Assembly: GCA_014191975.1 (NCBI GenBank)
Contig: BJHG01000018.1
Span: 1-33,791 of the forward strand
DNA length: 33,791 nucleotides
Direction of reading: 5' to 3'
DNA from: Methylococcaceae bacterium
GTDB lineage: Bacteria > Pseudomonadota > Gammaproteobacteria > Methylococcales > Methylomonadaceae
Made by a program: the position numbers and the translations under genes
The notes under the pieces: model-generated
What the model saw: only the letters and a program-made list of their open reading frames with translations
What the model was told of the DNA's origin: nothing
Databases searched by the model: none
Part shown: positions 4,185 through 18,891 of the stretch, piece by piece
Layout of the letters: the number at the start of each line of letters is the position of its first letter
Position numbering within the stretch: the stretch's first letter is position 1

Positions 4185-4229
4185 TATCTAAAGTATCTTA
4201 TTTCGCTATTTTAAATTTTAGTCCTACTA

Positions 4230-5738
4230 TTAGCTACTTCGGTCTAATTTGCGATAACCAATCGCTTCGCTCAAATGTTGAATTTCAATATTGGGTGAAT
4301 TCGCTAAATCCGCAATAGTTCGTGCCAATTTTAAAATCCGATGATACGCGCGATTCGATAAACCAAACCGTTCCATTGCCTGATCTAACAGTCGATGACT
4401 TGAATCCGACACTTCGCACCATTGTTTTACCTCTTTCGCGCTTAATGCTGAATTCGCTTTGCCGCTGCGAGCAATAGCAAGATTTCGTGCCGCAACCACT
4501 CGCGTCCGAATTGTCGCGCTACTTTCTTCACCGTCTGGCGAACCACGTCGCAACAAATCGTGCGACACGCGTGGAACTTCCAAGTGCATATCAATTCTGT
4601 CTAAAAGTGGCCCTGAAATTTTCGTCCGATAACGCCCAACTTGTTCCGAACTGCAATGACAACGCCCCGACGCATCCCCCAAATACCCGCACGGACACGG
4701 ATTCATTGCCGCAATCAATTGAAAACGCGCTGGAAAATCCACTTGCCGCGCCGCGCGTGAAATCGTGATGTGTCCCGTTTCTAACGGTTCCCGCAACACT
4801 TACAACACTTTTCGATCAAACTCAGGCAACTCATCCAAAAACAACGTGCCGTAATGTGACAACGAAATTTCACCTGGACGCGGATTACTTCCACCGCCGA
4901 CTAACGCCGCTGCCGAAGCCGAATGATGCGGCGCACGATAAGGCGGACGTAACCAATTCGCCACGTCCAAACCTTGATCACTAATCGACGCAATTGCCGC
5001 CGTTTCTTGCGCTTGTTCTTCGGTTAAAAACGGCAAAATCGTCGGCAATCGTGCCGCCAACATGGATTTCCCAGTTCCAGGAGGTCCCAGCATTAACAAA
5101 TTGTGTGCGCCCGCTGCCGCAATTTTAAACGCGCGTTTAACGTGATATTGCCCGTGAACGTCTGAAAAATCCAACTCGTGCTGAATTTCCGTCGGTTGCG
5201 GTTGTTGATACGTCGTTTGAATCTGCGTTCGTCCATTCAAATGAGCGCACACTTCCAACAAATGCGCCGCTGGTAGAATTTCCACGTTTTTGACTAACGC
5301 GGCCTCGGCGGTATTTTCTTTGGGCAAAATCAGTTGCCGATTGCAATCTCGGGCTCGAATTGCAACCGGTAAAACACCGGTAATCGGACGCAATTCACCG
5401 CCCAACGACAATTCACCCACGCATTCATATTTATCCAAATCCTTGGTTGAAATCTGACCGCTTGCCGCCAAAATTCCCAACGCAATCGCCAAATCGAAAC
5501 GCCCACCTTCTTTTGGCAAATCGGCAGGTGCAAGATTCACCGTAATGCGTTGCGCGGGGAAATCGAAACGGCAATTTTGAATCGCGCCACGCACGCGATC
5601 TTTACTTTCTTTCACCGCCGTTTCAGGCAAACCCACGATATTTAACGCGGGTAAACCATTCGCAACGTGAACTTCAACGGTCACTAAGGGCGCGTCAATG
5701 CCAGAACGACCGCGACTGTAAATGACGGCTAAACCCAT
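4230..5738 (-). pseudogene. comM: comM/yifB AAA+ ATPase interrupted by one in-frame stop
   Basis: ComM (YifB, Mg-chelatase-like) is a hexameric AAA+ helicase that promotes branch migration during integration of donor DNA in natural transformation. The frame starts at ATG 5738 (MGLAVIYSRG, as in relatives; the upstream extension to 5801 overlaps ubiK). It runs 312 codons through the N-terminal Lon-S5-like domain, Walker A (GPPGTGKS) and Walker B (LFLDELPEF). At 4800-4802 a TAA occurs within FDRKVL*VLREPLETG, where the family has FDRKVLEVLREPLE, so a Glu codon became a stop with no frameshift. The remaining 189 codons are intact to the normal end (NPCPCGYLGD, sensor and arginine-finger region). 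Total length of about 502 fits the family. Either this is a recent nonsense mutation, a read error, or two polypeptides are made (GTG at 4797-4799 follows the stop). Confidence 0.9.
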
Positions 5739-5748
5739 GTTAGTAAAC

Positions 5749-6006
5749 TCAATCTTGGGTTGGTGCGACGGAGGCTTCCAATGCTTCAACACGCTTTTCA
5801 AGAGCTTCCAAATTCGTGCGCGTTTTCGCTAACACTAATTTTTGCACTTCAAATTCTTCACGAGTGACTAAATCCATTTTGCCCAACGCGCTTTGTAAAA
5901 CAGCCCGAAAGGTTTTTTCTAAATCGTCTTTGACTGTGTGTAAAGCAGGCGGAATTACGCCAGCTAACTTATTTGCCATCTCATCAATTGTTTTTGCATC
6001 GAACAT
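5749..6006 (-). CDS. ubiK: UbiK (YqiC/BMFP-domain) ubiquinone biosynthesis accessory factor
   Basis: The product is an 85-residue protein matching the BMFP family: MFDAKTIDEMANKLAGVIPP at the start, an amphipathic N-terminal helix. A C-terminal coiled coil follows (about residues 48-78, VTREEFEVQKLVLAKTR then LEALEKRVEALEA). UbiK assists late ubiquinone ring-modifying enzymes and can bind lipid. It lies 10 bases upstream of comM and 15 bases downstream of the MarR regulator, in the run speE-marR-ubiK-comM. The pairing of ubiK with comM is common in gammaproteobacteria. Length and start are normal. Confidence 0.85.
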   Translation of the reverse strand: MFDAKTIDEMANKLAGVIPPALHTVKDDLEKTFRAVLQSALGKMDLVTREEFEVQKLVLAKTRTNLEALEKRVEALEASVAPTQD

Positions 6007-6021
6007 GATTCTTCTCTCAAG

Positions 6022-6588
6022 TTAAGCCGGTAAACGATGTTCACGGCAAATTTTATGGGTTTCAATTTGCCAAACTGGCAAACGAGTTTTTCTACAAGTG
6101 TAGTGATTTTCTTCGACGTTAAAATGAACGCATGAATCATCACAAGAACCAAAACTTTTAATGTCACAACTTTTTTGTAATGTGAATAACGTCATTCGCA
6201 ACGCATCGTCTAACGTGGCGTATTGTTTCGATAAAACAGCTTGTTGTGCCTGATTAAAAACGTCATCGTTATTCGCATTTTTAAGTAACAATTCACCATT
6301 TTTTGATAATAATAGATGTGTCACACGCGCGTCTTCTTCATCTAATTGTTTTTCGATGTAGCCTTTACGCTCCAATACTTGCAACGTTTGCGATACAGTT
6401 CCTTTTGTCAACCCAAAATACTCGGTCAAGCCAACGGCGGTGTTGCTGTAACTGTTATAATCATTTAAATAATCAAGCACTTGAATATGAATTGGTTGCA
6501 AGCCTAATGTTGCATGTTTTTTGCGTTCTTCAGCACGAATTAACGTGCTAATACGCTCAATCAATTTAAAGGTAGATAAATTCTGCAT
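6022..6588 (-). CDS. MarR-type regulator with cysteine-rich C-terminal tail
   Basis: The product is a 188-residue protein. Residues about 1-135 are a MarR winged helix domain: TEYFGLTKGTVSQTLQVLER is the recognition helix region, and YIEKQLDEEDARVTHLLLS is the wing with the conserved D-x-R. The last 50 residues are an added segment with cysteines at 141, 149, 153, 165 and 181 (SFGSCDDSCVHF, YTCRKTRLP, KICREHRLP). Such a tail could hold a metal or Fe-S cluster, or act as a thiol switch. I have an impression of other MarR proteins with a similar 'CRxC..F....C.....ICREH' tail, but cannot name a studied one. It starts three bases after the speE stop, so it is probably co-transcribed with polyamine synthesis. 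Its targets are unknown. Confidence 0.8.
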   Translation of the reverse strand: MQNLSTFKLIERISTLIRAEERKKHATLGLQPIHIQVLDYLNDYNSYSNTAVGLTEYFGLTKGTVSQTLQVLERKGYIEKQLDEEDARVTHLLLSKNGELLLKNANNDDVFNQAQQAVLSKQYATLDDALRMTLFTLQKSCDIKSFGSCDDSCVHFNVEENHYTCRKTRLPVWQIETHKICREHRLPA

Positions 6589-6591
6589 TGA

Positions 6592-7434
6592 TTACGCAAA
6601 CGCCTTTTTGAAAAATTCAGGCTGTGCCATTGCTGCGTGATGAATGTCGAGATTGTAATAAACAGTTCCGAAATCTTTGTTAGCGCAATCATCAGCGCGG
6701 AATGTTAACGCCGTTTTACTTGCAATTGTTGCACTCCACCAGCCTGATGGATAAATACATTGCGGGAAAAATAGCGTTTGTTTATGACCAAAACCAGCGG
6801 TTTGCATAGCACCACGCATATCTTTGATTAAATCTAAATGTAATAACGCAGATTCACTTTGCTGAACCAGCATCCCATCTTCCGCTAAACATGCCACACA
6901 ATCACGGTAAAACGCTTCGCCGAATAAACCTTCCGCAACACCAACAGGATCAGTGCTATCAACAATAATTAAATCGACTGAATTTGGCGCGGCATCTTTC
7001 AGCCATTTTATACCGTCAATAAATTTCAAATCTGCGCGCGCATCGCCATTTGATTCACATAACTCTGGGAAATAAATTTCTGCTAAACGTGTGACGCGTT
7101 CATCGATGTCAATTTGTACCGCTTCTTTCACGTTTGTGTGTTTTAAAACTTCACGCAACGTCCCGCAATCACCACCACCGATAATCCAAACACGTTTTGG
7201 ATTTGGGTGCAAAAACAACGCAGGGTGACTAATCATTTCGTGATAAAAGAAATTATCGCGTGTTGAAACCATTGTGCAACCATCAATTACCATCAATTTA
7301 CCAAACGTTTCGGTGTCATAAATTTCTAGTTTTTGAAATTCCGATTGCTCTTCGTGCAGCTTTGCGTTTATTTTCAGAGAAAAAGCAGTCCCAGTTGACA
7401 ACATTTTTTCAGTGAACCATTCGTTTGAATTCAT
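6592..7434 (-). CDS. speE: spermidine synthase (polyamine aminopropyltransferase)
   Basis: The product is a 280-residue enzyme that transfers an aminopropyl group from decarboxylated S-adenosylmethionine to putrescine in the cytosol. Its features are those of the family: an N-terminal beta domain, YHEM at 64-67, the nucleotide-binding loop GGGDCG (86-91), the acidic VQIDIDERV strand, and VDSTDPVG with catalytic Asp159. Length matches bacterial SpeE (about 280-290). The start is ATG 7434 with AGGA upstream. It is the first gene of the minus-strand run speE-marR-ubiK-comM and is divergent from mrcB. No speD or ornithine decarboxylase is in the window, so the source of substrates cannot be seen. 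nspC at 26192 is the only other polyamine gene here. Confidence 0.95.
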   Translation of the reverse strand: MNSNEWFTEKMLSTGTAFSLKINAKLHEEQSEFQKLEIYDTETFGKLMVIDGCTMVSTRDNFFYHEMISHPALFLHPNPKRVWIIGGGDCGTLREVLKHTNVKEAVQIDIDERVTRLAEIYFPELCESNGDARADLKFIDGIKWLKDAAPNSVDLIIVDSTDPVGVAEGLFGEAFYRDCVACLAEDGMLVQQSESALLHLDLIKDMRGAMQTAGFGHKQTLFFPQCIYPSGWWSATIASKTALTFRADDCANKDFGTVYYNLDIHHAAMAQPEFFKKAFA

Positions 7435-7467
7435 TGTTAAAATCCTAAAAAGTTAAGTAATAAAATC

Positions 7468-7473
7468 ATTATA
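7468..7473 (-). promoter_or_regulatory. -10 site of the speE promoter
   Basis: Read on the minus strand the hexamer is TATAAT, 33 bases before the speE start. Seventeen bases further upstream the -35 hexamer is only TGCAAG, a weak match, which might mean an activator is needed. Confidence 0.45.
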
Positions 7474-7513
7474 GTTGGATTCGTGTATTGCTTGCACCTT
7501 GAACAGTTCGATT

Positions 7514-16953: not shown

Positions 16954-18891
16954 TTATTTCAACAAATTTTCTAACAAACCATTCAATTTATGCACAAACG
17001 CCGCTGGATCGTCTAATTTTCCGCCTTCGCTCAAAATCGCTTGATCAAACAAAATCTGCGTTAAATCTGCAAAACGGCTGTCGTCTTGTTCCACTTTCAG
17101 GCGTTGAACTAGCGCGTGGTCAGGATTGATTTCAAAAATCGGTTTTTTGTTACCCAAGCCCATTCCACCCAACATTTGTCCCGCATCTTTCATCATGCGT
17201 TCCATGTGTAAACTCATGCCGTAAACGTCCGCGACCAAACACGCAGGTGATTCCGTTAAACGATGACTCAAACGCACGTCGCTTACTTTGTCGTTCAACA
17301 CGGTTGTAATTTGCGCTAAAACGCTTTCAAAATCTTGCGTCGTCGCTTCGTGTGCGGCTTTGGTTTCTTCGCTTTCTTCTTCGCCTAAATCCAAATCACC
17401 TTTGGCAACGGATTGAATATGTTTGCCGTCGAATTCGTCTAAATGCGACACCAACCATTCGTCGATGCGGTCGGAAAGCAATAAAACTTCAATGCCTTTT
17501 TTGCGGAAAATTTCCAAATGCGGACTATTTTTCGCCGCTGCAAAACTTTCTGCCGTGACGTAATAAATTTTTTCTTGCCCTTCTTTCATACGGCTAACGT
17601 AATCTTCTAACGACACATTTTGTGTGTCGCTGTCGTTGTGCGTCGAAGCAAAACGGAACAATTTCGACACGCGCTCATTATTTGCGCTGTCTTCAATTGG
17701 AGCTTCTTTCAACACCGCCCCAAATTGCGTCCAGAAAGTCGCGTATTTTTCAGGCTCATCTTTCGCCAGATTTTCCAACATGCCCAACACTTTTTTGACC
17801 GCACCCGATTTAATGGTGTTGAGTTGTTTGCTTTGTTGCAGAATTTCGCGCGACACGTTCAACGGCAACGAATTGGAATCAATAATCCCACGAATAAAAC
17901 GTAAATAACGCGGCATCAATTGTTCAGCGTCGTCCATGATGAAGACTTTTTTAACATACAATTTCACGCCGTGTTTTGCGTCTTTATCCCATAAATCAAA
18001 AGGCGCGCGGCTTGGAACGTACAACAATAATGTGTATTCGTTTGAGCCTTCGACTTTGCTGTGAACGTGCGTAATCGGATCTTGGAAATCGTGCGAAACG
18101 TGTTTGTAAAATTGGCTGTAATCGTCGTCAGAAATTTCTTGACGTGATTTTGTCCACAATGCCGCCGCGCTGTTAATCGTTTCTTCGACGATTTCAGGAA
18201 CTGCTTTTTCGGCAGTTTCGTCTTCGTCGTCACCAAATTCAGATTGAACTTCTTTATCCATCACAATCGGCAACGAAATGTGGTCGGAGAATTTACGAAC
18301 GATGGAACGCAATTTCCAACCGTCTAAAAATTCGCTTTCGCCTTCTTTCAAATGCAAAACGATTTCAGTGCCGCGTGTCGATTTTTCAACGTTTTCAATT
18401 GTGTAATCGCCTTCGCCTGCTGATTCCCAACGTGTGGCTTCGGTTGAACCGGCTTTGCGTGTGGTCAATGTGACTTTGTCGGCAACGATAAATGCCGAAT
18501 AAAAACCTACGCCGAATTGTCCGATTAACTCGCTGTCTTTCGCTTGTTCGCCCGTCAATGCTTCAAAAAATTGTTTCGTGCCAGATTTTGCAATCGTGCC
18601 GATGTGTTCTTGAACTTCGGCGCGACTCATGCCGATACCGTTGTCAATAATTGAAACGGTGCGTTTGGCTTCGTCAAATTCGATGCGAATTTTTAACTCG
18701 CTGTCGCCTTCGTATAAACCGTCGTTCGATAACGCTTCAAAACGCAATTTATCCGCCGCATCCGACGCATTTGAAATCAATTCGCGCAAGAAAATTTCTT
18801 TGTTGCTGTAAAGCGAGTGAATCATCAAATGTAATAAATGTTTTACTTCAGTTTGAAAGCCTAACGTTTCTTTTTTTATCGCAGTAGTCAC
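16954..18891 (-). CDS. htpG: HSP90-family chaperone HtpG
   Basis: The product is a 645-residue cytosolic ATP-dependent chaperone. The N-terminal GHKL ATPase has [20 protein letters not shown] with the catalytic Glu, '[11 protein letters not shown]', '[11 protein letters not shown]' and '[17 protein letters not shown]'. The middle domain has '[11 protein letters not shown]' and '[11 protein letters not shown]' with the conserved Arg, followed by the C-terminal dimerisation domain. The usual bacterial length is 620-640. It starts at GTG 18889-18891 with AAAGGAAA close upstream. A heat-shock-type promoter lies just before it, so it is likely a single-gene unit under sigma-32 with its own terminator. 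Confidence 0.96.

Follow-up and report, generated by a model that had tools for sequence, protein, structure and literature searches.

Introduction

Does a single stop codon in an otherwise well-kept comM gene record the loss of natural transformation in a relative of methane-oxidising bacteria, or is it an error of a draft genome, or a stop that the cell tolerates? PMC11612176 describes ComM as the canonical branch-migration helicase that serves transformation in Gram-negative bacteria. Breakage of comM is already known, and the case presented here is a further instance. The window analysed, a stretch of 33,791 nucleotides, is the whole contig C18 of a 2.13 Mb draft genome (131 contigs, 97.4% complete, 0% contaminated) from a Methylococcaceae-like gammaproteobacterium, which is labelled G000 in our comparisons. 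An initial annotation of this window had reported a TAA in comM in place of a conserved glutamate codon and had offered three options, i.e. a very recent change, a sequencing error or suppression.

Results

The comM frame lies on the minus strand and runs from an ATG at 5738 to a TAA at 4232..4230. In the sequence as given, positions 4802..4800 read TAA and interrupt this frame at codon 313, exactly where the initial annotation had located the stop; with codon 313 left open the gene encodes 502 residues (Table 1). Residue 313 is the single internal stop, and the downstream half, previously described as intact, is indeed strongly conserved and free of any further lesion. With the stop entered as X, the frame matches TIGR00368 (NCBIfam) over its full length (641 bits against a cut-off of 362) and also exceeds the cut-off of PRK09862 (560 bits). 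The domain order is that of ComM/YifB proteins, with a Lon-like domain (PF13541), PF01078 and a C-terminal PF13335. The stop splits PF01078, and the two pieces share out the Pfam Mg_chelatase model between them (positions 1-123 and 125-204 of 207). The one uninterrupted reading frame of a ComM/YifB gene is thereby broken, and the stop stands where relatives keep a sense codon, as in a young pseudogene. A genome search revealed no second comM copy.

Table 1. Features of the comM region; positions refer to the window.
Feature	Position	Strand	Basis
Premature TAA, comM codon 313	4800..4802	-	GAA or GAG in same-genus relatives
comM 5' part: 312 codons + stop; Lon-like (ChlI) domain, Walker A K224, Walker B D302/E303	4800..5738	-	PF13541 and first 123 positions of PF01078; residues invariant in 109/109
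comM 3' part: 189 codons + normal stop; opens with GTG right after the TAA	4230..4799	-	Domain matches, structure alignment
Contents of comM 3' part: Arg316 (sensor 3), DNA-contacting hairpin region, zinc-finger cysteines, arginine finger R463, Mg-chelatase C domain	4230..4799	-	Cysteines by eye
Stretch close to G010: comM + 85-codon ORF, speE	4237..7504	.	DNA identity; tree (comM)

The affected codon was compared across 109 further comM loci (29 of relatives, 80 of a named genome collection), among which at least one genome appears twice (L025, L034). Residue 313 is Glu in 100 and Asp in nine of these loci, as the claim of a conserved glutamate site would have it, and all 15 same-genus copies carry GAA or GAG. 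The nearest relatives, G009 and G010, have proteins 98% identical to the ComM studied here and retain GAA, the state implied by the single G-to-T change that the initial annotation proposed; the nearest named relatives in the genome collection, 83% identical, include Methylococcaceae and Methylobacter records, in a search that may omit this genome's own record. K224, D302, E303 and R316 are invariant in all 109 copies, and R463 is present in 108, the remaining copy not being aligned there. The comM stop is a true feature of the sequence as given and affects a strongly conserved codon.

Among the best 150 comM matches from 201 genomes of the family, a list ordered best first in which weaker and possibly broken copies go uncounted, two carry an internal stop, i.e. 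this genome and G007. A comM match is absent from 12 of the 201 genomes, and some others hold fragments only. G007 belongs to the same genus, and its stop (L009, G007:C33), a TGA at codon 473, is independent of the one reported here. Both are single in-frame stops in otherwise conserved genes, but the TGA of G007 lies 10 residues past the arginine finger and costs the protein its last 30 residues only. Two further observations, to which no weight is given here, concern the sequence context of codon 313. The codon following the stop is GTA in G009 and G010 and GTG here, and other same-genus copies also have GTG. At 4794-4808 of the window the motif GTGTTG is found on both sides of the stop, the right-hand copy having arisen via a synonymous change relative to G009/G010.

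Residues 1-497 of ComM align without gaps to ComM of Legionella pneumophila (PDB 8rxd, E 1.4e-155; see also 8rxk, 8rxs and 8rxt), a ComM/YifB member which shares these motifs but whose frame, in contrast to the one studied here, is not interrupted at residue 313. For the Legionella protein, PMC11612176 describes a lysine piston (K224), a sensor 3 (R316), a DNA-contacting hairpin (324-336), an arginine finger (R463), an embedded zinc finger and a Mg-chelatase C domain. The catalytic glutamate is E302 in the numbering of that paper, and the Walker B pair in our sequence is D302-E303. The premature stop leaves the Lon-like domain and the Walker A and B motifs in place and removes everything from sensor 3 onward. 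It lies three residues before R316 and 150 before R463, so that the proposed separation of the Walker motifs from the sensor and arginine-finger region is borne out.

Selection on comM was examined by comparison to the nearest relatives. Against G009 the gene shows 94 synonymous and 8 nonsynonymous differences (dS 0.32, dN 0.007), and dN/dS to the nearest relatives is about 0.02. This genome departs from the shared state of G009 and G010 at 70 codons (65 synonymous changes, four missense changes and the stop). Neutral drift over the whole branch would be expected to leave about 200 missense changes, while the 95% upper limit for four events is 9.2; the period in which comM could drift freely is thus limited to less than about 5% of the branch. 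Since selection on comM is not relaxed, the stop must be very recent or false, and the former idea of a "very recent" stop gains a numerical limit from the missense count. The nonsynonymous differences to G009 fall mainly into the downstream half (seven versus one upstream, Fisher p 0.02). A similar lean is seen between G009 and G010, in both of which the gene is intact (five versus one, p 0.22), and the downstream excess was for this reason not read as decay.

The mutational pattern was estimated at synonymous sites of G010 versus this genome, in a comparison without outgroup that covers L128-L147, L150, L184-L213, L250-L269 and the window on our side and stretches of G010 on the other. The skew amounts to 3.3 for G-to-T over T-to-G and 3.2 for C-to-A over A-to-C, and to 1.9 and 1.7 for the transitions. 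Under this substitution pattern, about 14% of newly arising nonsense mutations are expected to be GAA-to-TAA. A GC-to-TA mutator was considered and is kept as a lead only, as mutY and mutM are free of stops and the comparison has no outgroup.

A second premature TAA was found in comEC, the gene for the DNA-import channel. It corresponds to residue 638 of the 756-residue G009 reference (L150 position 3094, about 9297 in G000:C51) and lies after the channel domain, within the metallo-beta-lactamase domain (512-698 of the G009 protein). The aligned residue is encoded by GAA in 10 and by CAA or CAG in three of 13 relatives, and this genome's copy is the only one of 14 full-length genus copies with an internal stop. 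At columns otherwise invariant the comEC of this genome has 11 private changes, the most of the 14 genomes; G007 has 10. Both competence stops are compatible with a GAA-to-TAA change. This coincidence is mildly striking and is the principal argument for a common damage process or for readthrough as glutamate.

The matches of this genome to dprA, pilQ, the ComEA family and the ComF family contain no stops, although in none of the 18 genomes does a ComF match reach the family cut-off. Of the six competence-related families examined (comM, comEC, dprA, pilQ, ComF and ComEA), two thus carry a stop in the assembly. Genus-wide, comM and comEC together show three stops in 30 full-length copies versus none in dprA, mutY, mutM, pilQ and comF (Fisher p 0.017, with 83 copies entered for a comparison set that counts 84, i.e. 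16 dprA, 16 mutY, 16 mutM and 18 pilQ copies above cut-off plus the best comF match of 18 genomes). The partial copies of comEC (G001, G008 and two of G017) and comM (G015), none with a stop, were excluded from the 30. Weaker second mutY matches, which have stops and fall below the cut-off, were dropped from the mutY set. Among the top ComEA matches no stop was seen in the genus.

Across the family, an internal stop occurs in three of the 150 comEC matches listed, those of this genome, G097 and G161. The chance of finding at least one genome in both stop lists (two comM, three comEC) is 0.04 on the assumption that the two lists cover an identical set of 150 genomes. This value is rough, since G097 is not among the comM matches listed, and such overlap statistics are weak and were found after the fact. 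G097 and G161 each carry one in-frame TAG in comEC, and the best comM match of G097 is weak (E 4.9e-161).

The comM gene may also have a history of its own. DNA identity to G010 is 92% at 4237-6006 (comM and the 85-codon ORF) and 86% at 6593-7504 (speE), and the sequence between these similar segments, 6007-6592, is unmatched to G010. Synonymous difference to G010 is 0.205 in comM. Across the 316 gene pairs in which 80 or more codons were compared, the median is 0.39 and the 5% point 0.197; the comM value is low, yet not unique. The comM tree places this genome beside G009/G010 with full support. A tree of comEC, dprA and mutY, from which mutM and pilQ were left out, does not recover this grouping and places the genome with poor support (38-39%). 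Each alignment rejects the tree of the other (AU p below 1e-40, 11 genomes), in a test that compares whole trees, which also differ elsewhere. It is likely that the lineage took in the comM block by recombination, through transformation or another route, before the stop arose. Low synonymous difference to G010 was also observed at 16957-17517 and 18238-18891 of the window, in L252 (11644-15098) and in L266 (6596-11121), and these patches suggest several recombined tracts besides that of comM.

Discussion

Our analysis favors a genuine and very recent nonsense mutation, which probably inactivated ComM in a lineage that is losing natural transformation. The ribosome would terminate after residue 312 and release a short ComM consisting of the Lon-like domain and half an ATPase. 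Such a product would lack Arg316, the hairpin, the zinc finger, the arginine finger and the C-terminal domain, and a hexameric branch-migration motor could presumably not be built from it. The premature TAA in comEC would be a second hit on transformation. Because comM seems to lie within an imported block, the lineage appears to have recombined with relatives earlier on; it would then recently have stopped, or be in the course of stopping, the uptake of DNA. Several points speak against this scenario. As comM shows no relaxed selection, and comEC no clear sign of it, the two genes would have to have been lost separately and both of them recently, a pattern for which an error accounts just as easily. 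The matches to dprA, pilQ, ComEA and ComF, moreover, are stop-free.

The alternative that deserves most attention, although we hold it only tentatively, is a sequencing or assembly error, i.e. a false base in the draft contig and a second one in comEC. Selection is not relaxed in comM, nor clearly so in comEC, the draft is split into 131 contigs, and the two stops share one change class, for which a damage-type error is conceivable. General assembly quality was evaluated on 318 gene pairs (104,998 aligned residues) from sampled stretches of this genome versus G010, a set including some duplicates and fragments from overlapping G010 stretches and from genes cut at stretch ends. The disruptions of comM and comEC were known beforehand, which leaves 316 other pairs. 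Three of these contain a disrupted gene: a DUF3570 gene (L142 around 1300-1370, G000:C15) with a frameshift followed shortly after by a TAA, and frameshifted genes in L262 and L252; occasional errors in the assembly are thus conceivable. Short frameshifts near gene ends can escape such a comparison, and the one in the DUF3570 gene was found only by looking. A stop was flagged in 21 pairs, 17 of which were set aside by position, local identity and inspection by eye, their stops preceding the gene start or falling within the final residues. That leaves comM, comEC, the DUF3570 gene and the frameshifted gene of L262. The L252 frameshift is listed apart from the 21, and the pair L261, outside the 318, stays in one frame.

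In-frame stops are therefore rare among the other pairs (1/316, in a gene that is also frameshifted), and hits on two of six competence-related families would be unlikely if errors were scattered. The comM stop site, furthermore, is outside any homopolymer run. The low disruption rate speaks against an assembly riddled with errors throughout; the comM and comEC codons themselves are not cleared by it. Two leads were abandoned in this part of the analysis. The stop of the DUF3570 gene, a potential third GAA-to-TAA change, is no clean parallel as the gene is frameshifted just upstream. A codon-usage scan for split genes proved too weak, its filtered list missing comM itself, and homology was used instead. 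As a separate observation, L147 (G000:C21) shows the same features near 4228 and near 18779, about 14.5 kb apart in a 20 kb stretch, a possible duplication.

A stop tolerated by the cell, either because UAA is partly decoded as Glu or because ComM is made from two pieces after re-initiation, is improbable. In its favor, relatives mostly have Glu at the positions of the two stops, both comM halves are strongly conserved, and the GTG straight after the TAA opens a frame of 189 codons. By eye, no strong Shine-Dalgarno sequence precedes this GTG, and the split falls within the ATPase domain. UAA, moreover, is recognised by both release factors. A search that scored 150 of 197 candidates yielded 36 tRNA genes, all of which were read by ARAGORN; none has a stop-reading anticodon, and the two for Glu carry the ordinary TTC. 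This set is probably incomplete, as isoleucine is not represented in it. Stop usage was counted over 434 kb of the genome: of the 256 open stretches of at least 200 codons that reach a stop, 167 terminate in TAA, 59 in TGA and 30 in TAG. As TAA is the commonest stop and no stop-reading tRNA is among the 36 found, dedicated suppression is unlikely, which weakens the third option of the initial annotation. A suppressor tRNA was rejected on the same 36 genes, a set that looks incomplete. We give very little credence to the more far-reaching idea that some GAA Glu codons in conserved genes became UAA and are partly still read as Glu, with ComM and ComEC made at low, perhaps regulated, levels by readthrough.

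That comM is an old and drifting pseudogene, long lost, is highly improbable, for the stop itself and the other one in the sister genome G007 at codon 473 are outweighed by a dN/dS of about 0.02, the lack of any further lesion and four missense changes where drift predicts about 200.

A recent genuine loss has parallels elsewhere. In Acinetobacter baumannii, according to PMC11472951, comM has often become a pseudogene, with most of the interruptions falling in the Mg-chelatase domain, and this is linked to non-transformable strains. In the assay controls of the same paper, loss of comM cuts transformation more than tenfold and loss of comEC brings it below threshold. The inactivation there is mostly due to insertions of mobile elements, in contrast to the single codon without any insertion found here. 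Piscirickettsia salmonis, as presented in PMC12955456, resembles our case in having a broken comEC next to intact competence genes; it differs in that comEC is hit by transposons, deletions, frameshifts and stops and comM is intact, whereas here comEC and comM have one stop each. Among the papers listed in a limited literature search, none concerned competence loss in methane-oxidisers.

Were both stops genuine, transformation would be blocked mainly at DNA import, through comEC, and the effect would go beyond recombination efficiency. The genome would then represent a very early case of a methane-oxidiser relative losing transformation by point mutations in the genes for the channel and the branch-migration helicase, following the apparent replacement of comM itself by recombination. 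It would offer a clean setting, without mobile-element insertion, for asking what selects for the loss of transformation outside pathogens. If the stops are errors, they are a warning on calling competence loss from single draft genomes.

One further possible comM disruption was seen in an order-level relative (G034:C1:2519380-2536387). There the gene appears to be split into two pieces about 15.5 kb apart, which cover residues 1-284 and 281-501; this arrangement suggests an insertion with a short target duplication.
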